Below are positions 3-22,197 of a stretch of 64,000 nucleotides of DNA, one piece after another (position 1 is the stretch's first letter; every line of letters begins with the position of its first letter). Under the pieces are notes generated by a model. It saw only the letters and a list, made by a program, of their open reading frames with translations, searched no databases and had not been told where the DNA came from. Position numbers and translations under genes: made by a program. This DNA comes from Paraburkholderia sp. FT54 (GTDB lineage Bacteria; Pseudomonadota; Gammaproteobacteria; Burkholderiales; Burkholderiaceae), in NCBI RefSeq assembly GCF_031585635.1, contig NZ_CP134198.1, forward strand, positions 124,001-188,000. The letters run 5' to 3'.

Positions 3-620
3 CTCTCGCCGCAGGGCACACTCGTCCCAGACACGCTGGCGACGCTTTTCGAAACGCTGATGGGCCTCGTGGTCGGCAGCGGACTCGGTATCGGCCTCGG
101 GCTGCTGCTCTGGTTCGTGCCGAGGGTCTCAGGCGTGGCCGAAGGTCTGTCGGTCATTCTGAACAGCATTCCGAAGATTGCGCTCGGTCCGCTGATTGTC
201 ATCTGGTTCGGCTCGGACATGGCCTCGAAGATCTGGCTCGCCGGCATCTCCACCTTCGCTGTCGCGATGATTTCCGCGTGCGCCGCGGCGCGCGAGGTGG
301 ATCAGGACCTGCTGAATCTGTTCCGCTCGTTCAAGGCGAAGCCGGGCATGATCTTCAGCAAACTGATCGTACCTAGCGCACTGCCGTGGATCTTCTCGAC
401 ACTGCGCGTGAACATCGGCTTCGCGCTGATCGGCTCGGTGGTGGGCGAATACATCGCTTCGCAGGTGGGAGTGGGTCACGAAGTGTTCGTCGCTGGCTCT
501 TTGTTTGACCTCAATACTGTTTGGCTGGGCATTATCGTTCTCACATTGATGGCATCGATTCTGAGCTGGATTGTTCAATTTACGGAAGCAAAGGTGATTA
601 CATGGAAAAGAAAACGGTGA
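3..620 (+). CDS. ABC transporter permease, NitT/TauT type (5' partial)
   Basis: Membrane subunit of an ABC importer of the nitrate/taurine/sulfonate family. The reading frame is open to the left edge of the window, so the start lies upstream. The visible part has several hydrophobic segments and the cytoplasmic EAA-type loop that contacts the ATPase (ARE, then LLNLFRSFKAKPGMIF, then the LIVPSALPWIF segment), typical of BPD_transp_1 permeases. It overlaps the start of the binding-protein gene by 19 bases, so the two are translationally coupled. The partner ATPase is not in the window and probably lies just upstream. The transported compound cannot be read from the sequence; the amidase neighbours suggest an amide or other organic nitrogen compound. 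Confidence 0.9.
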   Translation, partial: LSPQGTLVPDTLATLFETLMGLVVGSGLGIGLGLLLWFVPRVSGVAEGLSVILNSIPKIALGPLIVIWFGSDMASKIWLAGISTFAVAMISACAAAREVDQDLLNLFRSFKAKPGMIFSKLIVPSALPWIFSTLRVNIGFALIGSVVGEYIASQVGVGHEVFVAGSLFDLNTVWLGIIVLTLMASILSWIVQFTEAKVITWKRKR

Positions 621-1579
621 AGTTTCTGGGCACTTGCCTTGTGGCGGCAGTCGCCGCTTCCGGGGCCCGCATGGCGGTTGCTGCCGAGCCGGTAGTCGTC
701 TATCAGGCCTTTCAGTCGATTCAGTATCTGCCGCTTTACGTGGCGCTCGACAAAGGTTTGTTTGCAAAGAACGGTCTCACGGTGCAGAAAGTGACGGCCG
801 GCGGCGGCGCAGCCGGAGTGGCTGCGGTGATCGGCGGTCACGCGGACTTTTCGCTGCAGGACCCGATGACGGCGATGCTTGCCAACCTCAAGGGCGCGTC
901 GCTCGTCAATGTGGCGAACGTGGTTGCAGGCGTGCCCGTCTGGATCATCGCGCCGCCGGCCTCGTCGGTTAAGGAGGTGTCCGATCTGGCCGGCAGGAGC
1001 GTGGCCACTGCGCTACCGCCGACGACGAGTACGTATCTGCTGCAGCGCCTCGTTAGCGAGCGAAAGCTCGCTAACGTGAAGCTCGATACCGTGCAGATCG
1101 GCACGGAGCTCGCACCGGTCAGCGCGGGGCGCGACGAAGCGGCGGCGCTTTACGAGCCACAGGTCGATACCGGGCTGTCACAGGGATACCGGATCGTCTA
1201 CGGGTTCCCCAGGGCCTATCCGGGCGGCTATGTATTCTCCAGCATGGACACGCTCGCTTCCACGATCAAAGCCAAGCCACAGATGGTCGCTGCGTTCGTG
1301 AAATCGATCGGCGAGGCCGAGGCGCTGATCCAGCATTCGCCCGATACGGCGAAGGCTGTTGCGCGGACCGAGTTTCCGACGCTTGACCCGAAGGTGGTCG
1401 ACAGCGCCGTACAGCGCATGATCGACCAGGAGATCTTCGCAGCGACACCCGAGATTTCCGAGCAGGCGTTCCGTAACGCGCTGGCCCTGCAGGAGTCCCT
1501 CGGCAACATCAAGCCGGGCAGCGTGACATATGCCGGCGCGGTGGACAATTCGTTTGCGGCGGCAGCAGCGCGCAAATAG
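602..1579 (+). CDS. ABC transporter periplasmic binding protein, NMT1/TauA-like
   Basis: Periplasmic solute-binding component (325 aa) of the preceding importer. The start is placed at the ATG giving a MEKKTVKF N-terminus, because a cleavable signal peptide follows (hydrophobic stretch ending in AVAAEP, about residues 8-29). The mature part begins with the PVVVYQAFQSIQYLPLYVA pattern typical of NMT1/THI5-like and SsuA/TauA proteins, followed by DKGLFAKNGL. A longer in-frame start at 521 would bury the signal peptide and is unlikely. The gene overlaps the permease and is followed about 100 bases on by an amidase, which suggests that imported substrate is hydrolysed by the downstream enzymes. 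The ligand is unknown. Confidence 0.9.
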   Translation: MEKKTVKFLGTCLVAAVAASGARMAVAAEPVVVYQAFQSIQYLPLYVALDKGLFAKNGLTVQKVTAGGGAAGVAAVIGGHADFSLQDPMTAMLANLKGASLVNVANVVAGVPVWIIAPPASSVKEVSDLAGRSVATALPPTTSTYLLQRLVSERKLANVKLDTVQIGTELAPVSAGRDEAAALYEPQVDTGLSQGYRIVYGFPRAYPGGYVFSSMDTLASTIKAKPQMVAAFVKSIGEAEALIQHSPDTAKAVARTEFPTLDPKVVDSAVQRMIDQEIFAATPEISEQAFRNALALQESLGNIKPGSVTYAGAVDNSFAAAAARK

Positions 1580-1681
1580 GCACGGGAACGTGAGACGGCG
1601 CTCGCGCAATGCCGACGCCCGCTCGAATCGATCCGGATTCCTCGCGCAAGTTGCGCGATCAACAGTAAAGCTATCACCAGA

Positions 1682-3010
1682 ATGCAAAAGCAATCGTTGC
1701 TGACTACTCTGCTTGCCAGCCGCGGCGACGCCCAGGCTGCCCGCGCACGGCTCTCAGCCGCAAAGGCGCGCGCTGACGAACTCGAGCCCTGGCTCCGCGC
1801 GTTCACATCGCGAGCCGACAACTATGACGTGGATGCCGCAGTCAATGGACCGCTCGCCGGCCTGCCGGTCGGTATCAAGGATCTGATCGATACACGCGAC
1901 ATGCCGACTGCCTACGGGTCGCCGGTCTATCGCGGACACCAGCCGTCGGCGGACGCGCGTATCGTCGAGTCCATCCGGCAGGCGGGCGGAGTGGTCTTCG
2001 GGAAGACGGTGACGACCGAGTTCGCCTGGCGTGAGCCTGGACCCACGGTCAATCCGTGGAACCGACTGCACACGCCGGGCGGGTCGTCGAGCGGCTCAGC
2101 GGCAGCCGTGGCCGCTGGCATAGTGCCACTTGCACTCGGTACGCAGACCGTCGGCTCGGTCATCCGGCCGGCCGCTTATTGCGGAGTCGTCGGCTACAAG
2201 CCCAGTTTCGGCAAGGTGTCCCGCGACGGTGTGCATCCGCTGTCCGGCTCGCTCGATCATGTCGGCTTTTTCGCGCAGACGGTAGAGGGTGTGGCGCTCG
2301 CGCATGCACTCTTCGTCGAGCACCGATCTGAGGTGTTGGCGAGCCTCGAAGCATGGACCGCATGGTTCCCGGCCAATGCTCCAGCCCGGCTGGGCGTGTT
2401 ACGCACGCCCTTCTGGGACCGGGTGCAGCCGGCACAGAAGGAGAACTTCGATGCCTCGCTCGAGCGTCTGCGCGCCGCCGGCGCCGTGCTCGTCGAGCTT
2501 GAATACGGCGCAGATATGCAGGCTATGGTCGACGCGGTGCAGGTCATTGCGTGCGTCGAGGCGCACCGCGCGATCGGCCCCATCGCCGCCGGGCATGGTG
2601 AGCTCGTCAGTGAGCACATGCATAGGCTGATCGCGGCGGGCGCGGCAACGCCTGCCGCTGAGTACGAGGCTGCCATTGCGCTGCAGGCGCGGTTGCGTCG
2701 CGAATCGAAGACGCTGCTCGCCGGATGCGAGGCGCTCGTAACCCTGTCGGCGCCTGGCGAGGCACCCGCAGGGCTCTCGGACACAGGCGACGGGATTTTC
2801 TGCGCACCATGGAGCCTTACAGGCAGCCCAGCCGTGACTGTGCCGTCGGGCCGCACCGCCAATGGCTTGCCGCTTGCGTTCCAGGTGGTCGGCGAGTTCG
2901 GCGCGGATCTGAGCACGCTGCAGATCGCGGCCTGGGTCGAAAGCCAGCTGCAGGCGCAATGGCCGGCCGCATCCGTATCGGCTGGGTATCCCGAAGTGGC
3001 GTCCGCCTGA
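1682..3010 (+). CDS. amidase (amidase-signature family)
   Basis: Cytoplasmic amidohydrolase of 442 aa that cleaves a C-N amide bond. The Ser-cisSer-Lys catalytic set is visible: Lys66 in GIKDLID, the serine/glycine loop PGGSSSGS near residues 132-139, and the probable nucleophile Ser159 in TQTVGSVIRP. The usual GTDTGGS signature is altered to TQTVGS, a variant seen in a subset of the family. Length is normal. It lies between a binding-protein gene and a GntR regulator on the same strand. The substrate cannot be deduced; it could equally be an allophanate-, biuret- or aryl-amide-type hydrolase. Confidence 0.88.
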   Translation: MQKQSLLTTLLASRGDAQAARARLSAAKARADELEPWLRAFTSRADNYDVDAAVNGPLAGLPVGIKDLIDTRDMPTAYGSPVYRGHQPSADARIVESIRQAGGVVFGKTVTTEFAWREPGPTVNPWNRLHTPGGSSSGSAAAVAAGIVPLALGTQTVGSVIRPAAYCGVVGYKPSFGKVSRDGVHPLSGSLDHVGFFAQTVEGVALAHALFVEHRSEVLASLEAWTAWFPANAPARLGVLRTPFWDRVQPAQKENFDASLERLRAAGAVLVELEYGADMQAMVDAVQVIACVEAHRAIGPIAAGHGELVSEHMHRLIAAGAATPAAEYEAAIALQARLRRESKTLLAGCEALVTLSAPGEAPAGLSDTGDGIFCAPWSLTGSPAVTVPSGRTANGLPLAFQVVGEFGADLSTLQIAAWVESQLQAQWPAASVSAGYPEVASA

Positions 3011-3086
3011 CGGTCTGCGAGCGCGCCAGTGTCGGTTATAGTGCGGGGCATGCTCTAACACGGCGAAGCGGCAAAAGGAGGATACG

Positions 3087-3755
3087 TTGAGCAGGCCCTA
3101 TCGAACCATCCAGGAATACGTCCTCGGAACATTGAGGGCCGAAATCCTGAAGGGAGTGTATCCGCCGAATACTCGTCTCAGACAGGAAGAGGTGGCCAAG
3201 CGCCTGGACGTCAGCACGACACCTGTGCGCGAGGCGTTTCGCGATCTGCGGGCGGAGGGGCTGGTGTCGATCGACCCGAACCGGGGCGTCGTAATACGCG
3301 GCCTCACTGCGGAAGACGTGAGCGAGATTTACGAACTGCGCATGCTGCTCGAGCCCATGCTCGCGGAGCGGGCCTGCCGGCAGCTCGCGCCCGCCGATCT
3401 CGCGGCGGCCACTGTATGTCACGCAACCATGAGCGCGACCCTGTCGTCCGAAAAATGGGCGTTGCTCAACGTGGAATTCCACCGGCACCTGATAGGGAGT
3501 CAGGAGAAGACCCGTCTGTTCGAGATCGTCGAAAGCCTCTCGGGTGTCGCGCGTCCCTATGTGTCGTTGGCGATGCACGTCAAGCAAGACCTCATGGAGA
3601 GTAACAACCGCGAGCACGCGCAGCTGTTGGACGCCTTCCGGGCGGGCGATGCGCTGTCCGTGCGCGAGCAGAGCCGGATACACCTCGAAAACACGCGCAA
3701 CGCGATCGTCGCCTGGGTTACCCAGTGGGCGCCGACGGAGGTCGCCCACGGCTAA
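3087..3755 (+). CDS. GntR-family transcriptional regulator (FCD subfamily)
   Basis: DNA-binding regulator of 222 aa. The N-terminal winged helix-turn-helix covers about residues 1-75 (YVLGTLRAEILKGVYPP, then EEVAKRLDVSTTPVREAFRDL), and the rest is a helical FCD ligand-binding domain (TAEDVSEIYELRMLLEP, then LNVEFHRHLI). The start codon is TTG, supported by a strong AAAGGAGG ribosome-binding site 8 bases upstream. FCD regulators usually repress catabolic operons until an organic-acid ligand binds. Its position between two amidase genes suggests that it controls this plus-strand amide cluster; the ligand is not known. Confidence 0.9.
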   Translation: MSRPYRTIQEYVLGTLRAEILKGVYPPNTRLRQEEVAKRLDVSTTPVREAFRDLRAEGLVSIDPNRGVVIRGLTAEDVSEIYELRMLLEPMLAERACRQLAPADLAAATVCHATMSATLSSEKWALLNVEFHRHLIGSQEKTRLFEIVESLSGVARPYVSLAMHVKQDLMESNNREHAQLLDAFRAGDALSVREQSRIHLENTRNAIVAWVTQWAPTEVAHG

Positions 3756-3898
3756 AGCGAGCCAGGCGGTGCGCTTGGCGTGTGCTCTCTTGGGGGCGCA
3801 GGTGGGGCCAACCGGTCGGCCGCAGCGCGTAGGGTGTTCCTTTCGCCGTGAACCGGACGCCCAGCTAAGCCAACGCTTATTCCAGGAACATACAAGAT

Positions 3899-5395
3899 AT
3901 GGACGATTCGCTGGTTTCCCTGTCGGCGGTGACAGCCCGTGAACTCATCGGGCGCCGCGACCTTTCCCCGGTCGAACTGCTCGAGGCCTGCATCGCTCAG
4001 ATCGAGGCGATCAACCCGGCCGTCAACGCCGTGGCGGCGACCTGCTTCGAGCGCGCGCGCGAGGAAGCGCGGCGCGCGGAATTGGCCGTTGCGCGTGGCG
4101 GGCCGCTCGGCCCTTTGCACGGGTTGCCGCTCGGGGTCAAGGATCTGGAGGAAACGGCAGGCCTTTTGACCACCTACGGTTCACCGCTTTTTCGCGCCAA
4201 CGTGCCGGTCCGCGATAACGCCTTCGTGGCTCGCCTGCGCGCCGCGGGCGCTATCCTAACCGCCAAGACCAACACACCCGAGATGGGCGCGGGGGCCAAC
4301 ACGCGCAATGTGGTCTGGGGCGCTACCGGCAATCCGTTCAATCCGTTGTTGAACGCTGGCGGCTCTTCGGGCGGCTCGGCCGTCGCGCTCGCCACCAGCA
4401 TGCTGCCGCTCTGCACGGGCACGGATACGGGCGGCTCGCTGCGGATTCCCGCGGCGCTGTGCGGCGTGGTCGGATTCCGGCCTTCGCCGGGCCTCGTGCC
4501 GATCGACCGCAAGGTGCTCGGCTGGACGCCCATCGACGTGAGTGGTCCAATGGGGCGCACCGTCGCGGACACCCGGCTGCAACTGGCCGCCCAGGCCGGC
4601 TTGCATCACAACGATCCGCTCGGGTATCGCATCGCCGGGTCAGCATTCGGGCATGGCGCGCCACTCGACGTCAGCGAGCTGCGTATCGGCTATACGGAAG
4701 ACTTCGGCGTGTGCGCTGTCGACAATGCGACGCGCGCGACCTTCCGCACGAAGATGGCGGCGATCGCAGGCTACGTCAAGCTGTGCGAGCCGGTGGATCT
4801 CGACATGGGCGAGGCCGACCGCGCTTTCGACGTGATCCGCGCGCAGAACTTCCTCGCCAGTTTCAGGGAGACCTACGAGCGCGACCCAGCTCTGCTCGGC
4901 CCGAACACGCGCGCCAACTACGAAATGGCGCAGGCGATGTCGCTTCGCGACGCAGTGTGGGCGCACGCGGAGCAGACGAAGATTTTCCGCCGCTTCCAGG
5001 CGAAATTCGACGACTACGACGTAATAGTCTCGCCTACCTCGTCGATCTCTCCGTTTCCCTGGTCCCGGTGGCATCTCGCCGAGGTCAATGGCCGCCCGCT
5101 CGACAACTATTACCGCTGGGTTGCGCTTACCTACGTCGTCACGCTGCTAACGAACCCGGCCCTGTCGCTACCTTGTGGTACCGATCACGCGGGCATGCCG
5201 TTCGGCCTGCAACTCGTCGGTCCGTTTCGCGGCGACGAGCGGCTGCTTGACATGGCCGAGTCGCTTGAAACCGCGCTGCGCAATGATGCGGTACTGAACC
5301 GTCCGCTCCCCGATCTTCGCGCGCTCTCGTCTACGGTAAGCGAACTCAAGTCGATCGTGACCGATCCGCCCGTGCTGACGGTGACGGGCGGCTAG
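3899..5395 (+). CDS. amidase (GatA-like, amidase-signature family)
   Basis: Amidohydrolase of 498 aa with a canonical signature: Lys81 in LGVKDLEET, the AGGSSGGSAVA loop (about 153-163) and nucleophile Ser180 in GTDTGGSLRIP. It belongs to the same superfamily as GatA, but no GatB or GatC partner is present, so a catabolic amide-hydrolysing role is more likely than tRNA amidation. It follows the GntR gene after 143 bases that contain no other gene, and an AGGA motif precedes the ATG. It is a clear paralogue, not a duplicate, of the upstream amidase. The IS-rich region begins just downstream. Confidence 0.88.
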   Translation: MDDSLVSLSAVTARELIGRRDLSPVELLEACIAQIEAINPAVNAVAATCFERAREEARRAELAVARGGPLGPLHGLPLGVKDLEETAGLLTTYGSPLFRANVPVRDNAFVARLRAAGAILTAKTNTPEMGAGANTRNVVWGATGNPFNPLLNAGGSSGGSAVALATSMLPLCTGTDTGGSLRIPAALCGVVGFRPSPGLVPIDRKVLGWTPIDVSGPMGRTVADTRLQLAAQAGLHHNDPLGYRIAGSAFGHGAPLDVSELRIGYTEDFGVCAVDNATRATFRTKMAAIAGYVKLCEPVDLDMGEADRAFDVIRAQNFLASFRETYERDPALLGPNTRANYEMAQAMSLRDAVWAHAEQTKIFRRFQAKFDDYDVIVSPTSSISPFPWSRWHLAEVNGRPLDNYYRWVALTYVVTLLTNPALSLPCGTDHAGMPFGLQLVGPFRGDERLLDMAESLETALRNDAVLNRPLPDLRALSSTVSELKSIVTDPPVLTVTGG

Positions 5396-13021: not shown

Positions 13022-13954
13022 TCAACGCTTGGGCAAGTATTTTTTGTCGACCTTGCAGATATAGGTGTATTTCGGATTCACCATCTGGGTACAGCGCGCT
13101 TCCGCGATCTGGCCGAGCAGCATGTAGGCTTCGGCACCAGGGATGCCGTAGCCCTCTTCCAGCCAATAGACCATTTCCTCGAACGCGATGCGCAGCGCGT
13201 CGTCGAGCGGCCGCGCGCAGCCGACGGTGCAGATGTGCGTCGGCGTCTCGATGCGCGGCCAGGTCATGCGGCTCGGCGCGCGGACGAGATCGACCTTGAG
13301 CTTCAGGTGGCCACGAATTTCGATCGCCCCCATGCCGTTACACTCGGCGTCGCCCTGCAACGCGTGCACGTCGCCGAAATACAGGTACGCGCCTTCATGG
13401 AACACCGGAAACATGATGCGATTGCCATTCGTGACTTCCTGGATGTCCAGGTTGCCACCGTGGGTACCGTTGTCGACGGTGAGCGTGCCGCCCGCCACCG
13501 GCGCCACGCCGATCACGCCGATCATCGGTTTGGCTTCCAGCTTGAGCGAGTCGCTCCAGTGAACAATGCCATTTTCGACGACGACGTTGCGATTCTGAAT
13601 GCCGAATTCCTTCTTACGGACCCAATCCGGAAAAATGCCGATGCCCGGCCACAGCGCGGTATAACCGAGGCCGTGCACGCCAACTTCGAGGACGTCGATC
13701 ACGACCATATCGCCAGGCTTCGCGCCGCGCAGACGCACAGGCCCGGTGGCCGGATTGACGAACGGGAGCTTCACTTTCGACTCGTCAAGCTTTTCGTCGA
13801 GTTGCGTGATCAGGTGGCCACCGATGTTCAATTCGGTCTCGACCTCGAAGGTTTCGCCAGGCGAGACTTCAGCGATGAAACCATCGGTAGCCGTCAGTGC
13901 GTACTTCAGGTCATCCTTGCGGATGATCTGGTGATGTGTGGATAGCGTGCTCAT
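13022..13954 (-). CDS. fmdA: acetamidase/formamidase family protein
   Basis: Enzyme of 310 aa from the FmdA_AmdA family, which hydrolyses short aliphatic amides such as formamide to the acid and ammonia. Recognisable blocks are NPATGPVRLRGAKPGDMVV, DNGTHGGNLDIQEVTNGNRI, YFGDVHALQGDAECNGMGAI and the C-terminal AYMLLGQIAEARCTQMVNP. It is shorter than the roughly 400-aa Methylophilus formamidase, but many family members are about this size. It follows the ABC permease after 70 bases and is in turn followed by fmdB, so the operon couples uptake with release of ammonia. The exact substrate is not proven. Confidence 0.88.
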   Translation of the reverse strand: MSTLSTHHQIIRKDDLKYALTATDGFIAEVSPGETFEVETELNIGGHLITQLDEKLDESKVKLPFVNPATGPVRLRGAKPGDMVVIDVLEVGVHGLGYTALWPGIGIFPDWVRKKEFGIQNRNVVVENGIVHWSDSLKLEAKPMIGVIGVAPVAGGTLTVDNGTHGGNLDIQEVTNGNRIMFPVFHEGAYLYFGDVHALQGDAECNGMGAIEIRGHLKLKVDLVRAPSRMTWPRIETPTHICTVGCARPLDDALRIAFEEMVYWLEEGYGIPGAEAYMLLGQIAEARCTQMVNPKYTYICKVDKKYLPKR

Positions 13955-14024
13955 AGGATGCTGCCTACTCCTTCAGGGGTTGCTAAATGCCGCCCGCCGG
14001 CAAAGTCGCGGCGGATGGCTTAAA

Positions 14025-14855
14025 TCAATCAAACTTGTGCCAGGGCATGAGGAAGCGCTCGAGCCGACCGACGAGGAACGACAGGAAGAGCGCGAGCCCG
14101 ATGGTCACCACCACGCCGGCGAATACTTTGGGGATGATGTAAAGGCTACCCGCCTTGAAGATCGCATGGCCGAGCCCGTCGTCCGACGACATGAATTCGC
14201 CCACAATGGCACCAATCAACGCAAAGCCGACCGTGAGCCTGAAGCCCGCGAAGATGTCGCGCAGTGAGGCGGGGATCACCAGCTTACGGAAAGTCTGCCG
14301 CTTGGTCGCGCCGAGCGTGCGCATCTGATTGATCTGATCGTCATCGACGCTGGTCGCCCCCTTGTACGCGGTGACCAGCGCCACCACCACGACGGACAGC
14401 GTCGACATCGCGAGTTTGGACGGGAGCCCGGTACCGAACCAGATGATGACGATAGGCGCGAGTGCGACGATCGGAATCGAGCCCAGCGCAACGATGAACG
14501 GCTGCATGACCTTCGAGACGAAGCGCGAATACCATAGTGACAAGCCGAGCACGGTGCCGATGACATTGCCGAACAGAAAGCCAAGCAGCGTTTCCATGCC
14601 AGTCACGCCGGCGTCGTGCACGAGACTGCCATCCTGCTGCATTTTTACGAGGTAACCCCAGATCTGACTGGGCGAACCGAACAGGAAGGCCAGCGCCTGA
14701 CTGGACGTCGCAACTTGCCACAGGGCGAGCAGTGCAGCGAGTAGCGCGAGTTGGCAGACGGCCACGACGAGCTTGTTGCGGGAGCGGCGCAGCAGCCTGC
14801 GCCATTTGAGGGCTGCCGGGGCATACGGGGGCGCCGGGGAGCGGGTTTCTTGCAC
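14025..14855 (-). CDS. ABC transporter permease, NitT/TauT type
   Basis: Polytopic membrane protein of 276 aa with about six hydrophobic segments starting at residue 32 (VAVCQLALLAALLALWQVAT). The permease loop is visible as the GATSVDDDQINQMRTLGATK segment, followed by LVIPASLRDIFAGFRLTVGF, and there is a GLGHAIFKAGSLY block near the C-terminus. It lies 12 bases downstream of the ATPase gene. It is a paralogue of the permease at the left edge of the window but clearly diverged. Confidence 0.92.
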   Translation of the reverse strand: MQETRSPAPPYAPAALKWRRLLRRSRNKLVVAVCQLALLAALLALWQVATSSQALAFLFGSPSQIWGYLVKMQQDGSLVHDAGVTGMETLLGFLFGNVIGTVLGLSLWYSRFVSKVMQPFIVALGSIPIVALAPIVIIWFGTGLPSKLAMSTLSVVVVALVTAYKGATSVDDDQINQMRTLGATKRQTFRKLVIPASLRDIFAGFRLTVGFALIGAIVGEFMSSDDGLGHAIFKAGSLYIIPKVFAGVVVTIGLALFLSFLVGRLERFLMPWHKFD

Positions 14856-14867
14856 GCGGGTTCCTTT

Positions 14868-15701
14868 TCAACGTTCACCCATGCGCACGTCGAGCTGAGA
14901 CCAGATCTCGCGTACGTGGGCGGTGAAGCCCGCAGCGTCGCGGGCGGCCATCATGTCGTTGCGGTCGCAATCCAGGTGGATCTCGTGGATTGCCTTGATG
15001 CTGGACGGACGGTGGGTGAGGACGATCACACGGTCTGACAACGAGACCGCCTCCTCGACGTCGTGTGTGATCAGCAGGACGGAGCGACCTTGGCCCCTGA
15101 CCAGCCGGGCCATGTCGCTTTCCAGCACCAGTTTCGTCTGGAAATCGAGCGCGGCGAACGGCTCGTCTAGCAGCATCACTTCGGGGTCGGTCACCAGCGT
15201 GCGTGCGAGCGCAACGCGCGCACGCATGCCGCCCGATAGAGCCGACGGGTAATAGTTGTAATACGGTGCGAGTCCGACCTTGCCGAGCATCGCATGCGCC
15301 TTTTTCTCGCGATGCGCGCGCGGCATTCCGGTCAGTTCGAGGCCAAGTGTGACGTTGGCCAGCACGGTGCGCCATGGCATCAGCATGTCCTTCTGCAACA
15401 TGTAGCCGATGCCCTTGGGGACGTCCTGAAGCGGCTGGCCGTGCCACAGCACCGAGCCACGTGTCGGCTGCGTAAGACCGCTCATCAGGTTCAGCAGTGT
15501 GGTCTTGCCGCAACCAGACGGGCCCACCAGGCTGACAATTTCCCCCGCGCGCAGGCTGAAGGAAATGTCACCGATGACTTGATTCAACTCCCCGTCATCT
15601 TCGCCATATGATTTGCCGACCCCGCACGCAACCAGTGGGGTCAGCGGGTGGACCGCCCCTCCCGCCTGCGCCGGAGGCGCTTCCGCGCCCGCCACCTTCA
15701 T
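14868..15701 (-). CDS. ABC transporter ATP-binding protein, NitT/TauT type
   Basis: Nucleotide-binding subunit of 277 aa. It has Walker A GPSGCGKTT (60-68), the signature LSGGMRARVALARTL, Walker B EVMLLDEPFAALD and the switch His in LLITHDVEEA. It resembles SsuB/TauB/NrtD-type ATPases. The start codon overlaps the stop of the binding-protein gene by 4 bases (ATGA arrangement) and the permease follows after 12 bases, so the three transporter genes form a tight unit. Confidence 0.94.
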   Translation of the reverse strand: MKVAGAEAPPAQAGGAVHPLTPLVACGVGKSYGEDDGELNQVIGDISFSLRAGEIVSLVGPSGCGKTTLLNLMSGLTQPTRGSVLWHGQPLQDVPKGIGYMLQKDMLMPWRTVLANVTLGLELTGMPRAHREKKAHAMLGKVGLAPYYNYYPSALSGGMRARVALARTLVTDPEVMLLDEPFAALDFQTKLVLESDMARLVRGQGRSVLLITHDVEEAVSLSDRVIVLTHRPSSIKAIHEIHLDCDRNDMMAARDAAGFTAHVREIWSQLDVRMGER

Positions 15702-16768
15702 TTGGACCCCGCCACCGTTACGCCTGCTCCTGCCACGGCGGTCTTGACTGCCTTGTTGGAAAAGGTGTTGTCGATCACGTCGTTATAGGACAGCGTCCCT
15801 TGTACGTTGCCCAGGTACTTCTGCATCGATATCAGCTTGTCCCACTGCTGCCGGTCGACCGGCAGCGTTTGCGCCGGGATCTTATACTGCAACTCCATGT
15901 CGATTGCCTTGTTCACAACGTCGGCGGGCAGGTCCGGGAACTCCGCACGGGCAACCTCCTTCGCGTAGTCTGGCTTGGCATACGTAAGACGTGCGGCTTC
16001 TTCCAATGCGTTCGTGAGCGACTGCACGATCTCGGGATGGGCCTTGGCATACTCGGGCAGTACCATGATCCCCGTATTGCAGAACGGACCCATATAGCTC
16101 GAGAAGTCGAATACCACTTTCGCCCCTTGCGCCATTGCGGCCGCGACCATCGGCTGCTGCGCGAACGCGATGTCGGCACGGCCCGCGAGCATTGCACCGA
16201 TTTCCGTGCCTGGGGTGACTTCGACGATCTTCGCGTCTGTGCCGACTTTCAGGCCATTGTCCTGCAGCAGTTTCTTCGTGACGCTGTATTCGGTATTCGG
16301 ATCGGGCGACGTGACCAGGGTCAGGCCTTTGAAAGCCTTGGGATCGGTGATACGCGCCACGGTCTTCGATACGCCAAAGTAATGAGCACGCTGCACCAGC
16401 GTCCCGACGACCATGCCCGGTCCGCCGCGTTCGCGAGACATCTCCACCATGGTGGGATCGCCGACGGCGAACTGCGCGGTCTTGCCGAGCACCGCGGCGA
16501 AAGCCTGCGTGTCTCCACCGGCCGCGGTCAGGTGCACGGTCAGCCCGTACTTCTCGAACAGCTTCGCGTGCTGTGCAACGTAAAGGTCGATGTAACCGAG
16601 GTTATGTACGGCCTCGGAAAATTCGATGGGTTGCAGCGGCGCCGCGGAAGCGGGGTGAGCGAACCCGAAAGCGCAGGCGCTGAGCGTAGCGAGCAGAACA
16701 CGCCCAAGCCGGGGCACGGCACCGGTAGCAGAGCCCGAACCTTCTGCTGAAAACGTACCTCTTTTCAT
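15698..16768 (-). CDS. ABC transporter periplasmic binding protein, NMT1-like
   Basis: Secreted binding protein (356 aa) and first gene of the minus-strand amide operon. The N-terminus is a long signal peptide ending in AHPASAAP (about residue 43), followed by EFSEAVHNLGYIDLYVAQHA and LFEKYGLTVHL, the NMT1/THI5-like start. A GGAG ribosome-binding site precedes the ATG. The 5' untranslated region contains a terminator and an antiterminator-like hairpin preceded by a sigma-54-type promoter (separate entries), so expression is probably controlled by readthrough. The ligand is unknown; formamidase downstream suggests an amide or a compound that releases formamide. Confidence 0.92.
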   Translation of the reverse strand: MKRGTFSAEGSGSATGAVPRLGRVLLATLSACAFGFAHPASAAPLQPIEFSEAVHNLGYIDLYVAQHAKLFEKYGLTVHLTAAGGDTQAFAAVLGKTAQFAVGDPTMVEMSRERGGPGMVVGTLVQRAHYFGVSKTVARITDPKAFKGLTLVTSPDPNTEYSVTKKLLQDNGLKVGTDAKIVEVTPGTEIGAMLAGRADIAFAQQPMVAAAMAQGAKVVFDFSSYMGPFCNTGIMVLPEYAKAHPEIVQSLTNALEEAARLTYAKPDYAKEVARAEFPDLPADVVNKAIDMELQYKIPAQTLPVDRQQWDKLISMQKYLGNVQGTLSYNDVIDNTFSNKAVKTAVAGAGVTVAGSK

Positions 16769-16803
16769 TGCTTCAACTCCGACAATAATGAGATCGCAAA
16801 ACG

Positions 16804-16844
16804 AAAAAGGTCCGGCATCAGACGCGCTGATGTCGGACCTTTTT
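16804..16844 (-). terminator. intrinsic terminator in the operon leader
   Basis: In the minus-strand RNA a GC-rich stem of 13 positions (GGUCCGACAUCAG / CUGAUGCCGGACC, one A-C mismatch) with a five-base loop is followed directly by UUUUU, and it lies 36 bases before the binding-protein start. A terminator placed between promoter and first gene implies conditional readthrough. Its 5' arm overlaps the 3' arm of the small hairpin just upstream. Confidence 0.85.
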
Positions 16845-16881
16845 GGCCGGTGTTATCCAAGACGCCTTTGTCTCGGACAAC
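16845..16881 (-). promoter_or_regulatory. ANTAR-type antiterminator leader hairpins (copy 1)
   Basis: In the minus RNA a 12-bp stem (GUUGUCCGAGAC / GUCUUGGAUAAC) closes the hexaloop AAAGGC, which has the A at position 1 and G at position 4 expected of ANTAR-protein targets. One base later a weak second hairpin, CGGCC-(AAAAAG)-GUCCG with one internal mismatch, has its 3' arm within the terminator stem, so the two structures exclude each other. The stem contains two G-U pairs that would be A-C mismatches on the other strand, which supports minus-strand transcription. The second loop lacks the G at position 4. The same layout recurs at 22081-22110. Confidence 0.65.
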
Positions 16882-16935: not shown

Positions 16936-16951
16936 AGCAACGGCTATGCCA
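16936..16951 (-). promoter_or_regulatory. sigma-54-type promoter of the amide transporter/formamidase operon
   Basis: The minus strand reads TGGCATAGCCGTTGCT, which has GG-N10-GC spacing and matches the TGGCAC-N5-TTGCW consensus except at the sixth position. Transcription would start near 16925, about 44 bases before the first leader hairpin. A TGCACC half-site of NtrC type occurs about 140 bases upstream (17062-17067), but a full NtrC palindrome was not found. A similar element precedes the other operon at 22182-22197. Confidence 0.6.
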
Positions 16952-17138: not shown

Positions 17139-17500
17139 TTAGGAAAGCTCATCCGGCGTGGGCGTCTTGCCGTAGCACCATCGACCCTGATGTTCGCGCT
17201 CGTTGTTGTGCTGGTCAAGCCATGCGTTACGATCGGTCTGCAGCGCGTCGACCGATGGGTCGAACTTCTTGCGAAGCGCAACCCGACGATAGAACTCGTT
17301 GAGCATGGTCTTGTGCAGGCGCTCAACGATGCCGATGGTTTGCGGAGAACGCGCTTTGGTGCGGGTGTGATCGATGTTCTCGACGGCCAGATACAGCTCG
17401 TATTCGTGGTATTCGGGGTTGCCGCTGTACTCGGTGCCCCGGTCGGTCAGCACGCGAGAGTGGAATACCATAGCTGTCGAAGAACGGGACGACGCGCTCG
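17139..17500 (-). pseudogene. IS481-family transposase C-terminal fragment, frameshifted
   Basis: Carries the second half of an IS481 transposase: VVPFFDSYGIPL in one frame, then after a shift near 17458 VLTDRGTEYSGNPEYHEYEL with the second catalytic Asp, SPQTIGIVERLHKTML with the catalytic Glu, and the end NNEREHQGRWCYGKTP. It belongs to a different IS481 subgroup from the intact element at 8302-9487. The 5' half is missing and an IS110 scrap abuts it. Confidence 0.82.
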
Positions 17501-17580
17501 AACTCAGTCGCGCTGCCTCCGACGGAGATGACGGCAGTTGCAATTATGGGGCCGACACCACGGATTTTTCTCAGCCGCTG
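17497..17580 (-). pseudogene. IS110-family transposase scrap
   Basis: About 28 codons reading QRLRKIRGVGPIIATAVISV followed by GGSATEFE, the helix-hairpin-helix region of the IS116/IS110/IS902 C-terminal domain. It is fused at its 3' side to the IS481 fragment and at its 5' side to unrelated coding remnants, so the junctions mark past recombination or insertion events. Confidence 0.7.
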
Positions 17581-18033: not shown

Positions 18034-19350
18034 TCAGATCGATTGATTGAGCGCAGCGCGCTGAGTGCGACCGCGCCCGAGCACCGCGTATGTCACGCCG
18101 CTTATCACTATCCCGATCAGCGCTTCGCCGTATTCCGGTACCCACATGTGCACGATGACCGCCGCGATCGAACCCAGCGCCCATGCTGCGAATGCCTTGC
18201 CATGGAACGGTTCCGCGTCGTCGACCCGGCCCGCGTTGCCGAAGAACAACTGGTCCATGATCATCACGGCGCCAATCGGCGGCACGAACATGCCGAGCAT
18301 GCTGAGCCAGTACGGGAACAGACTCCAGACGCCCGCAACCGCGGCCAGGCCGCCGATCAGGCCCAGCACCAGCGTCATCACGCGCATGCGGCTGCCGAAC
18401 AGGTGGCTGTAGCCCACTGCGCCGTTATAGAGGCAGTGCGCGCAGACCGAACCCAGGTTGACAAACACGAATATCAGCGCCAATACCGACACCACCGGCC
18501 CGTGGCCGCTCAGGAGCGGCAGGAAGTCACCGCCGTTTTGCGTCGGGTTGACCGCGGCGCCAGCCGCCACGACGACTGCGCCGAACAGAAATGCAATGGA
18601 GTTGGCCACGGGGAAGGCAGAGAACGAAGCGATTACACCGTCCCGTCCATTTTTCGACCAACGCGTGAAGTCCGCCGTCATGGTGCCGGCGTCCGCGAAG
18701 GTTGCAATGACAAGCGTGACTGCGCTACCGAAGCTCATTGTCCTTGCGGTGCCGGTGTACGTCATGATGCTGGAAAGGCCATGCTCTCCCGCGGCGAATC
18801 CCACGGCCACCAGACCCATGATAATAAAGAAGGGCACCGCGATCAGGCCGACCACGGAGAGCGCTTTGATGCCAAGGAACGTGATGAAGGTATAGAGCAC
18901 CATCGCGAAAACGATGACGGCTGTCGCGTTCCAGCCGAACGCGGTATGCACGGTTGCACCGGTCAGCCCGGTCTGGAACGCGTACCATCCGACCACGACA
19001 GTTGAGAGAAAGCCGCTTGCGACGGCATAGCCTTTGGTGCCGAAGGTCGCCTTGGCCTGCATGCCGAAGTTGAGCCCGGTGGAACCCGCGATATGACTGA
19101 GGGCGCCCACGTAGAGAAACAGCACGAAGTTGCCAATCAGGATGGCGAGCACGGCATGGATGAAACCCAGGTTGAGCGTGATGATGCCGCCGAACACTGC
19201 CTGTGTCAGCACCATCGGGAATCCAAACCATACGGCTGCTACTGACCTCAACGATTGTCGTCTGGGGAGTGGAACCGGTTCGTGTTCGAACTCTTCGGCA
19301 AGGCTGTTGTGTTGGGCGGTTGCAGCGCCAGGCGTGACAGAGTGATTCAT
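18034..19350 (-). CDS. NCS1-family nucleobase/cytosine-type permease
   Basis: Inner-membrane symporter of 438 aa with about 12 hydrophobic segments. The start is set at MNHSVTPGA because TCAGGAGA precedes it; an earlier ATG has no ribosome-binding site. Typical CodB/PurP features are WFGFPMVLTQAVFGGIITLN near the N-terminus, the AFQTGLTGATVH segment, TADFTRWSKNGRDGV and the C-terminal PPIGAVMIMDQLFF. Family members import cytosine, purines, allantoin, hydantoins or thiamine. It is the third gene of an operon with an amidase and an alpha/beta hydrolase, so uptake of an amide-ring compound is likely; the substrate is not determined. Confidence 0.88.
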   Translation of the reverse strand: MNHSVTPGAATAQHNSLAEEFEHEPVPLPRRQSLRSVAAVWFGFPMVLTQAVFGGIITLNLGFIHAVLAILIGNFVLFLYVGALSHIAGSTGLNFGMQAKATFGTKGYAVASGFLSTVVVGWYAFQTGLTGATVHTAFGWNATAVIVFAMVLYTFITFLGIKALSVVGLIAVPFFIIMGLVAVGFAAGEHGLSSIMTYTGTARTMSFGSAVTLVIATFADAGTMTADFTRWSKNGRDGVIASFSAFPVANSIAFLFGAVVVAAGAAVNPTQNGGDFLPLLSGHGPVVSVLALIFVFVNLGSVCAHCLYNGAVGYSHLFGSRMRVMTLVLGLIGGLAAVAGVWSLFPYWLSMLGMFVPPIGAVMIMDQLFFGNAGRVDDAEPFHGKAFAAWALGSIAAVIVHMWVPEYGEALIGIVISGVTYAVLGRGRTQRAALNQSI

Positions 19351-19417
19351 GCAATTCTCCTGAAGGGGATGTGCGGGAAACATCAAGGATCAGACATAAA
19401 CGGCAGGACGACGAACA

Positions 19418-20970: not shown

Positions 20971-21999
20971 CTAACGTTCCAGCAGGTCGACCAGCGCCGC
21001 GTTGACGAATTTGGCGTCGACAGGATTGAGACCTGCGCCGCCTGCCTGATGGCCCCAGATCGACGGAATGGGTCGGTATTCGGCATTGGGCATCTTCGAT
21101 ACCTCGTACTGGCTATCTTCGGGCGGAAAGTACAAGTCGGTTTGTCCTGGCATGACGATGGTTTTTGCCGTGATGCTCGAAAGCGCGAGGTCGAAATCGC
21201 CGTTGTAAAGCGGGTTGGCGCTGATGTCGCCGTGTTGCCAGGTCCACAGCATGGCGAGCAGGTCGTTGGCATCGCTTTCCAGAAAGCCACCTTCCCAGAA
21301 CGTCACGAGGAAGTCCTCCAGCGACGCATATCCAAGCGCCGTGATCGCCAGCTTCTCGCGATAAAACGCCTGCGAAAAGCCCCAGCCCGCATAGACGCGG
21401 CCCATCGCGCGCAGGCCACGCGCAGGCGGCTTGTCGTAAAAGCCTTCTTTCCATTCTGCATCCGCGGTGAGCGCCGCCTTGACGCCCTCGAGGAAAACGA
21501 AGTTGTGCGGCGAACACCGCGCCGAGCCGCACGAGGGCAGCATGCGCTTCACCATGTCTGGATACATCGAGCCCCAGTGGTATGCCTGCAATGCACCCAT
21601 CGACCAGCCGGTGACGAGTTCAAGCGTCTCGATGCCGAAAGTTTCGGTGACGAGCCGGTGCTGCAGCTTGACGTTGTCATACGCTGTCACATGCGGAAAG
21701 CGGGCCTGGTTGTAGGGCGGCGGGGTATTGCTTGGGGAGCTGGACAAGCCGTTGCCGAGCATGTCCGGAACGATGATGAAGTAGCGTGCGGGGTCGAGCG
21801 CCAGGCCGGGGCCGATCAGCCATTCGTTGTCGGCATGCTGGCCGCCGTACCAGGTCGGATAGACGATCGCATTGTCGCGCGCGGCGTTCAGGGTGCCATG
21901 CGTCTTGTAGGCAAGCCTGGCGCCACGTAGTGTCGCGCCGGATTGCAGCACAACATTGCCCATTTCGGCAATTTCGAACGTATCTGGTTCTTTCGTCAT
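20971..21999 (-). CDS. alpha/beta hydrolase of the homoserine O-acetyltransferase (MetX)-like family
   Basis: Protein of 342 aa with the nucleophile elbow TGWSMGALQ (Ser133), Asp288 in GQTDLYF and His317 in IWGHQAGG, a complete catalytic triad. The N-terminal NAIVYPTWYGGQHADNEWLI block is typical of MetX-like hydrolases that accompany catabolic operons rather than of true homoserine acetyltransferase. It is the first gene after the second leader. No strong ribosome-binding site is visible before the ATG, so translation may be weak or RNA-structure dependent. The reaction is unknown. Confidence 0.82.
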   Translation of the reverse strand: MTKEPDTFEIAEMGNVVLQSGATLRGARLAYKTHGTLNAARDNAIVYPTWYGGQHADNEWLIGPGLALDPARYFIIVPDMLGNGLSSSPSNTPPPYNQARFPHVTAYDNVKLQHRLVTETFGIETLELVTGWSMGALQAYHWGSMYPDMVKRMLPSCGSARCSPHNFVFLEGVKAALTADAEWKEGFYDKPPARGLRAMGRVYAGWGFSQAFYREKLAITALGYASLEDFLVTFWEGGFLESDANDLLAMLWTWQHGDISANPLYNGDFDLALSSITAKTIVMPGQTDLYFPPEDSQYEVSKMPNAEYRPIPSIWGHQAGGAGLNPVDAKFVNAALVDLLER

Positions 22000-22027
22000 A
22001 GGTTAAACATTTGCGGAAACGGTAAAC

Positions 22028-22069
22028 AAAAAAAGCCCGTCAACCAGGATCGGCCTGGTTGGCGGGCTT
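22028..22069 (-). terminator. intrinsic terminator in the second operon leader
   Basis: The minus RNA forms a 16-position stem (AAGCCCGCCAACCAGG / CCUGGUUGACGGGCUU, one mismatch) followed by seven U, about 29 bases before the start codon at 21999. Like copy 1 it sits between promoter and first gene and has a single mismatch in the stem. Confidence 0.88.
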
Positions 22070-22110
22070 CATTGGCCGGGGCCTGCACGGACGCCTTTGT
22101 CCGCGCAGGC
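22070..22110 (-). promoter_or_regulatory. ANTAR-type antiterminator leader hairpins (copy 2)
   Basis: The minus RNA has a 12-bp stem (GCCUGCGCGGAC / GUCCGUGCAGGC) closing the same hexaloop AAAGGC as copy 1, although the stem sequence differs at most positions: pairing is kept while the bases change. One G-U pair again pairs only in the minus RNA. Next comes CGGCC-(AAUGAA)-GCCCG, a hexaloop with A1 and G4 on a stem with one mismatch, whose 3' arm GCCCG is also the base of the terminator stem. This matches the two-hairpin ANTAR target motif followed by an overlapping terminator. Confidence 0.7.
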
Positions 22111-22181
22111 AAGTGATCAAGGGATTGCTGCTGTGTTTCAGCGCTTGCTGGATGCATCCGGCAGGCAACGCGAGGCGATGT

Positions 22182-22197
22182 CGCAAATGTCGTGCCT
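22182..22197 (-). promoter_or_regulatory. sigma-54-type promoter of the hydrolase/amidase/permease operon
   Basis: The minus strand reads AGGCACGACATTTGCG, matching GGCACG-N4-TTGC with GG-N10-GC spacing. The start of transcription would be near 22171, some 60 bases before the leader hairpin. Half-sites resembling NtrC boxes (GGTGCA near 22260, TGCACC near 22297) lie at the usual distance of roughly 90-130 bases upstream, but no full palindrome is seen. The 22111-22472 stretch otherwise contains no gene. Confidence 0.65.

Follow-up and report, generated by a model that had tools for sequence, protein, structure and literature searches.

A probable AmiR-type antitermination leader behind a sigma-54-type element before a hydrolase/amidase/permease operon of Paraburkholderia sp. 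FT54

Our analysis indicates that the segment preceding a hydrolase/amidase/permease operon of Paraburkholderia sp. FT54 is very probably an AmiC/AmiR (ANTAR) antitermination leader that acts in trans behind a sigma-54 promoter. This leader, here called the 22k leader, occupies positions 22197-22028 on the minus strand of the window, by which we mean the whole stretch of 64,000 nucleotides analysed. An earlier sequence-only reading had described a sigma-54-type element, a P1 hairpin with the hexaloop AAAGGC and an overlapping terminator with U7 before the operon; all of these were confirmed by reading the sequence, in which every element is present. The parts of the leader, its operon and a second, similar unit nearby (copy 1) are the following:

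22182..22197, minus strand: sigma-54-type -24/-12 element AGGCACGACATTTGCG, scoring 9/11 against TGGCAC-N5-TTGCW with GG and GC fixed
22081..22110, minus strand: P1, a 12-bp stem with hexaloop AAAGGC (A1, G4), based on sequence, folding and covariation over 34 leaders
22063..22078, minus strand: P2, putative antiterminator hairpin, CGGCC-[AATGAA]-GCCCG with a C.C mismatch, or GGC-[CAATGAA]-GCC
22028..22069, minus strand: intrinsic terminator with T7, its 5' arm sharing bases with the 3' arm of P2
20971..21999, minus strand: first gene, an alpha/beta hydrolase of the MetX-like NCBIfam subfamily PRK07581
19418..20887, minus strand: amidase (PF01425)
18034..19386, minus strand: NCS1/cytosine-type permease (PF02133)
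16936..16951, minus strand: copy 1 sigma-54-type element TGGCATAGCCGTTGCT
16802..16881, minus strand: copy 1 leader with P1 loop AAAGGC, P2 loop AAAAAG and terminator
13022..16768, minus strand: copy 1 operon, encoding an NMT1-type binding protein, an ABC ATPase, an ABC permease and an FmdA/AmdA-family protein

The P1 arms of the 22k leader, GCCTGCGCGGAC (22110-22099) and GTCCGTGCAGGC (22092-22081), form 12 pairs, one of them G-U, around the AAAGGC loop at 22098-22093. The P2 loop AATGAA (22073-22068) is of the A1/G4 form; the hexaloop version of P2 is interrupted by a C.C mismatch under the pair that closes the loop; the alternative is a plain 3-bp stem with a 7-nt loop. P1 and P2 are separated by a linker of 2 nt, or 3 nt if the inner GGC/GCC stem is counted. 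Because the 3' arm of P2 (22067-22063) lies inside the 5' arm (22069-22054) of the terminator stem (22069-22033; T7 at 22034-22028), the two pairings are mutually exclusive. The leader ends 28 nt upstream of the operon, whose hydrolase ATG is at 21999. The local folding energy of P1 (without its outermost pair) is -21.4 kcal/mol and that of the terminator -26.7 kcal/mol, compared with -2.8 kcal/mol for P2. P2 is thus weak, and the terminator should outcompete it unless P2 is stabilised by some other factor. The folding of 22020-22180 beats all 200 shuffles (z -5.26).

One may ask whether this is simply an ordinary terminator beside a hexaloop hairpin that arose by chance. AAAGGC by itself is indeed not enriched in the window (34 occurrences versus 27.6 expected); it is the combination of elements that is unusual, and three lines of evidence make a chance origin extremely improbable. 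The first is a covariance model (R3) trained on 31 leaders that included neither of the window leaders nor the copy-1 ortholog: in the window it matched the 22k leader at E 2.9e-18 and copy 1 at E 1.8e-16, then these two leaders read on their opposite strands (1.7e-4 and 0.034), with the next match at E 1. The second is the scarcity of such sites, as R3 gave only three strong matches in the whole genome of 8.65 Mb (E 1.1e-17, 3.8e-16 and 2.4e-14; next 4e-4); the best of these, beside amiCR, was in the training set, whereas the window leaders were not. The two next R3 matches in the genome, like the next match of R1, a model built from the genome's own three leaders, were plain terminators on inspection. 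Rfam at gathering thresholds gave no match in the window, and hence no curated family reports the 22k leader at that level.

The third line is covariation in an alignment of 34 leaders (A6). P1 is paired in 90.2% of cells, compared to 26-48% for slid controls; 10 of its 12 pairs are doubly changed, while the two loop-closing pairs are invariant in 34/34. The P1 loop keeps A1/G4 in all 34 and reads AAAGGC in 22. The terminator stem is paired in 94.1% of cells, with 7/11 pairs doubly changed. Compensatory changes in homologues, which the sequence-only reading had proposed to look for, are thus found in P1 and the terminator but not in P2: P2 is paired in 84-85% of cells, covariation sought in two registers across the 34 leaders is absent, and P2 consequently rests on conservation and the known mechanism. 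Its loop retains A1/G4 in only 8/34 leaders, the 22k leader among them. A script requiring A1-type P2 hexaloops missed many true leaders because P2 varies, and covariance models were used instead.

The two window leaders share loop and architecture, as had been claimed, and the covariation between them is real: each P1 arm of the 22k leader differs from that of copy 1 at 7/12 positions with pairing kept. An A1/G4 second loop is present in the 22k leader (AAUGAA) but not in copy 1 (AAAAAG). The copy 1 fold is matched or beaten by 1/200 shuffles (z -3.49), and this leader probably belongs to the same regulon. At the start of the window (positions 3-5275, plus strand) lies another group of genes for an ABC permease, an NMT1-like binding protein and two amidases, whose products share 29-39% identity with the proteins analysed here. 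Contig C3 of the same genome carries four more MetX-like hydrolase paralogs, 53-55% identical.

It was correctly noted that no ANTAR gene lies in the window: a PF03861 search of the genome returned three matches, all on contig C2, the window's contig being C4. The expectation of a single ANTAR protein consequently failed. One gene encodes a receiver domain followed by ANTAR, with the best ANTAR-domain score of the three, and adjoins an NMT1-like protein; by eye the pair is NasT/NasS-like. The second encodes a 200-aa AmiR (AmiR_N and ANTAR domains) directly behind AmiC. The third (L005:11343-11942) is an orphan AmiR with the same two domains, 80% identical to the AmiR beside AmiC, about 10 kb away behind urt-like/FmdA genes; we found no AmiC beside it. 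Orphan-type paralogs, 79-81% identical to AmiR1, also occur in G030, G063, G074 and C. udeis. The closest PDB sequences are Pseudomonas AmiR 1qo0 (E 2.3e-17) for AmiR and Pseudomonas AmiC 1pea (E 9.7e-99) for AmiC. A genome-wide check for further AAAGGC leaders added one to the two in the window, giving three strong leaders in total, and this one adjoins amiCR, between amiC-amiR and the divergent urtA-like gene of a urt-like/formamidase (FmdA) operon:

L006:4999-4918 (contig C2), minus strand: third leader, P1 loop AAAGGC, sigma-54-type element TGGCATGACCGTTGCT

These data support the view of the 22k segment as an ANTAR-type two-hairpin antitermination leader. Transcription would start at the sigma-54 promoter, with NtrC as the probable activator when nitrogen is limiting. 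Without inducer the transcript would fold P1 and the terminator, and RNA polymerase would stop before the operon. AmiC, the amide-binding sensor, would release AmiR upon induction, and an AmiR dimer encoded on C2 would grip the AAAGGC loop of P1 together with the weak P2 hairpin of the C4 leader. Following the model of the eut, nas and ami systems, AmiR would hold P2 against the terminator by binding both loops; the held P2 would use up the 5' arm of the terminator, and the operon would be read. The acting protein is presumably one of the two AmiR proteins, and the two window operons together with the urt-like/formamidase operon beside amiCR would form one amide/urea nitrogen-scavenging regulon. 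Directly observed are the anatomy, the covariation of P1 and the terminator, the mutually exclusive pairing, the regulator genes and the matching leader beside amiCR. The lack of covariation in P2, the A1/G4 form of its loop in only 8/34 leaders, the linker of 2-3 nt and the absence of this leader from the operon's relatives in the loci examined speak against this reading.

Alternatively, the same leader could be read by the NasT-like protein, which would make it responsive to nitrate and not to amides. This protein has the partner and the ANTAR-domain score to qualify. Nevertheless, the 18 kb around its gene (L004) contain no A1/G4 hexaloop hairpin with at least 8 pairs, while one adjoins amiCR; the leaders track AmiR orthologs between genomes; and the genes served are of amide/urea type. 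We therefore consider a NasT reading highly improbable.

The 22k sigma-54-type element is a predicted promoter of the sigma-54 kind, scored, like the NtrC sites, against consensus sequences. Across leaders, 36/41 have such an element scoring at least 9/11 (GG and GC fixed) within 150 nt upstream, versus 1.9% of random 150-nt control stretches, and 31/41 upstream regions contain an NtrC-like dyad of at least 9/12, versus 11% of controls; the leader rows are related and the controls come from whole loci including coding sequence, so that these counts are neither independent nor perfectly matched. The dyad of the 22k leader itself (9/12) is only suggestive.

Among 144 genomes of the genus, R1 (E up to 1e-3, strict filters) matched 31, of which 23 were kept and 8 dropped after inspection of the sequences; the inspected matches were the 40 best, i.e. 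all full-length ones above 35 bits. The dropped loci (L037, L038, L039, L040, L041, L042, L044 and L051; 35.7 to 44.8 bits) were plain terminators or atypical, although one of them, L039 (G062), was later recognised as a leader of another loop class. An AmiR search at 1e-20 was positive in 62/144 genomes, 21 of which encode a full-length AmiR that is at least 49% identical. With this cut-off, which was chosen after seeing the data, R1 finds a leader of the 22k class, verified by inspection, in 20/21 such genomes versus 3/123 others. The exception among the 21 is G062, with leader-like sites of the other loop class. The three others are G029, where the leader lies beside an AmiR fragment (70% over 71 residues), G068, where it lies beside a 41% AmiR, and G086, in which the same AmiR search found none. 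A further model, R2, adds to the others at least G089 (loop AAAGAU, sequence inspected) and G054 (model match alone), in each of which the contig with the match also encodes a 41-42% AmiR; among 349 genomes of the family it matched 58 at 1e-4, including uncurated matches below about 40 bits.

Most leaders with mapped surroundings sit in an amiC-amiR-urt island. The co-occurrence of leader and AmiR is therefore largely physical linkage within one island and weak evidence for action in trans. In G074 (L045) the copy-1 operon with its own leader lies inside the amiCR cluster, the two leaders being 12.5 kb apart: this arrangement ties copy 1 to AmiR and, through the identical loop, the 22k leader as well. 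In G438 the copy-1 operon is on another contig, and its leader (L234:5007-5087, plus strand), with loop CAAGGT, a -12 element reading TTTC and a broken terminator, looks decayed. Beyond the family, Pseudomonas AmiR loci (L130, L133, L145 and others; AmiR about 52%) also carry leaders of sigma-54 type; their P1 loops include ACAGUU, ACAGCU and GCAGUU, their P2 loops ACAAAA and ACAGAA.

Relatives of the 22k hydrolase (E up to 1e-60, identity at least 44%) occur in 30/144 genomes; one locus per genome was taken for these 30, with nine further places known, one of which was later included in L105. When the 30 loci and larger stretches (L072-L109) were scanned with a hairpin-and-terminator script, only FT54 showed a hydrolase preceded by an A1/G4 leader. 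In six loci (L102-L107) a 66-69% hydrolase follows a 44-45% NCS1 permease, with an AmiC and an AmiR of 44-46% identity nearby; one of them (G007) additionally has a 68% amidase. In L102 the gene order is amiE (aliphatic amidase, an NCBIfam equivalog over cut-off), two more genes, amiC and amiR. In all six, the permease and amiE units both stand behind leaders of another look:

L102:11956-12039, plus strand: other-class leader, with the same in L103-L107
L102:11715-11795, minus strand: other-class leader, with the same in L103-L107

Their P1 loop is AACAGC before the permease in 6/6 and AACATC or AACATT before amiE in the 5 inspected of 6, the P2 loop is AACAGA or AATAGA in 9/11 inspected leaders, and by eye TTGACA-like sequences lie upstream. 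R3 recovers all 12 of these leaders (E 5.8e-7 to 2.9e-4, 25-36 bits), a score that would not prove them on its own because plain terminators of FT54 reach 31 bits. Five genomes hold relatives of the amidase and permease as a pair (70%/58-60%); no leader was found for them in the stretches searched, of which L242 ends about 90 nt upstream of the amidase; three of the five (G014, G030 and G063) have AmiR-type leaders elsewhere. Plasmid relatives in Cupriavidus and Pantoea (L235, L236) likewise showed none in the stretches searched.

Among the loci examined, the AAAGGC leader thus precedes this operon only in FT54. The sequence-only reading would have been undermined by stems that fail to co-vary or by related operons standing without the leader; the stems do co-vary, but relatives of the operon stand without this leader in the loci examined. 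Conservation of leader and operon together accordingly did not hold up: related operons have either no leader in the stretches searched or one of the AACAGC class with a TTGACA-like promoter and another AmiR clade. The 22k leader therefore looks newly gained and not ancestral, most likely together with the assembly of the operon next to copy 1, and the operon has apparently joined the AmiR regulon recently. It is also conceivable that the leader is a relic, carried along as the operon came together beside copy 1 and now a constitutive terminator only, or decaying. The related operons without a leader, the decayed appearance of the copy-1 relative in G438 and an IS481-like transposase remnant at 17139-17543, flanked by the two leader-bearing operons (87.9 bits, where the NCBIfam cut-off is 224), would be in line with such an origin. 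However, every element of the 22k copy is intact, its P1 pairs fully despite the differences from copy 1 in each arm, and its P2 loop has the canonical A1/G4 form; a relic is improbable.

The two leader classes tend to differ at position 4 of the P1 loop. In AmiR trees of 33 and 28 rows, L102-L107 form one clade (support 100/99 and 99/98), which joins G005 and G062 (99/98) and then L071 and L231 (96/94). Leaders and leader-like sites in this wider clade include:

L061:5573-5652, plus strand: leader-like site
L061:8074-8159, plus strand: leader-like site
L061:8181-8262, plus strand: leader-like site
L071:12724-12801, minus strand: leader

A4 is found in 14/16 inspected P1 loops of the wider clade (11/11 in the six loci, 2/3 in G062 and one in L071), the exceptions being AACGUU (G062) and AAUGAC (L231); no leader was found for its member G005. 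Outside it, G4 occurs in all 34 leaders of A6 and in further ones read by eye, including those of Pseudomonas, some of which start the loop with G instead of A (GCAGUU in L130, for example). An out-of-sample test on G062, whose AmiR proteins branch next to the A4 clade, had a mixed outcome (A4 in AACAGA and AACACU, G4 in AACGUU), and the sister pair L071 (AAUAUC) and L231 (AAUGAC) is split; the position-4 pattern is therefore only a tendency along one part of the AmiR tree, as read from sequence, and no proven code. Two of the leader-like sites of G062 stand in tandem, 107 nt apart. A stricter rule equating hexaloop with AmiR clade was rejected, as loops vary within one locus (AAAGAC, AACGUC).

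The same kinds of genes (MetX-like hydrolase, NCS1 permease, once amidase) are found with A4 leaders where an A4-clade AmiR is present, and in FT54, which has AmiR of the G4 clade only, behind a G4 leader and a sigma-54 element. That loop position 4 contributes to an exchangeable specificity code within the AmiR family is a tentative idea that we regard as doubtful; if true, an operon would have been rewired in nature from one RNA-antitermination regulon to another via exchange of a promoter-leader cassette.

The proposed mechanism is ordinary and well supported, and the novelty lies in the operon's place in the regulon; surprises could come from the apparent switch between two AmiR leader classes and from the tendency at loop position 4. 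Our literature search, which covered its sources in part, found no description of this regulon. AmiR, known mainly for one local operon, gains a likely multi-operon regulon in Burkholderia-group bacteria, and our data suggest that operons join it by acquiring a compact module of sigma-54 element and leader. With many co-varying P1 leaders and two loop classes occurring in nature, recognition of RNA by ANTAR proteins becomes directly testable, including what loop position 4 and the weak second hairpin contribute.

Among known systems, the NasR-controlled nasF operon of Klebsiella oxytoca has a sigma-54/Ntr promoter followed by an ANTAR antitermination leader and serves nitrogen assimilation; NasR is a nitrate sensor fused to ANTAR. 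Promoter type, ANTAR leader and nitrogen assimilation are thus common to both systems, but nasF is a single local target with the sensor fused to ANTAR. AmiC/AmiR control operates by ligand release, instead of by phosphorylation as in EutV.

In the portions of Ramesh et al. 2012 (PMC3369931) available to us, the P1 stem matters for its structure, and sequence matters at loop positions 1 and 4 and in the pairs that close the loop; nitrogen genes dominate the targets of ANTAR dual-hairpin leaders, the search motif allowed a variable linker, and Burkholderia is named among the matches, so that some of the present leaders may already be listed in its supplementary tables. In that class P2 would be expected to carry an A1/G4 hexaloop on at least 3 pairs. 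The EutV regulon of E. faecalis, as described there, shares with ours a pair of small hairpins, of which our P1 has the A1/G4 hexaloop and our P2 may have one, a terminator overlapping P2, conserved closing pairs, targets outside the regulator locus and nitrogen genes. It differs in that our P2 loop is relaxed (A1/G4 in 8/34), P1 is long and the linker is short; linkers of the eut leaders measure 5-12 nt according to the same source, and 3 nt impaired induction. The amiE leader of Pseudomonas aeruginosa, by its features in that paper, resembles the present one in a regulator pair of the same families, amide-type genes and a hexaloop hairpin before an overlapping terminator. In contrast to amiE, P1 here has 12 bp and the linker 2-3 nt, and operons on two contigs are apparently served, each behind a sigma-54-type element.
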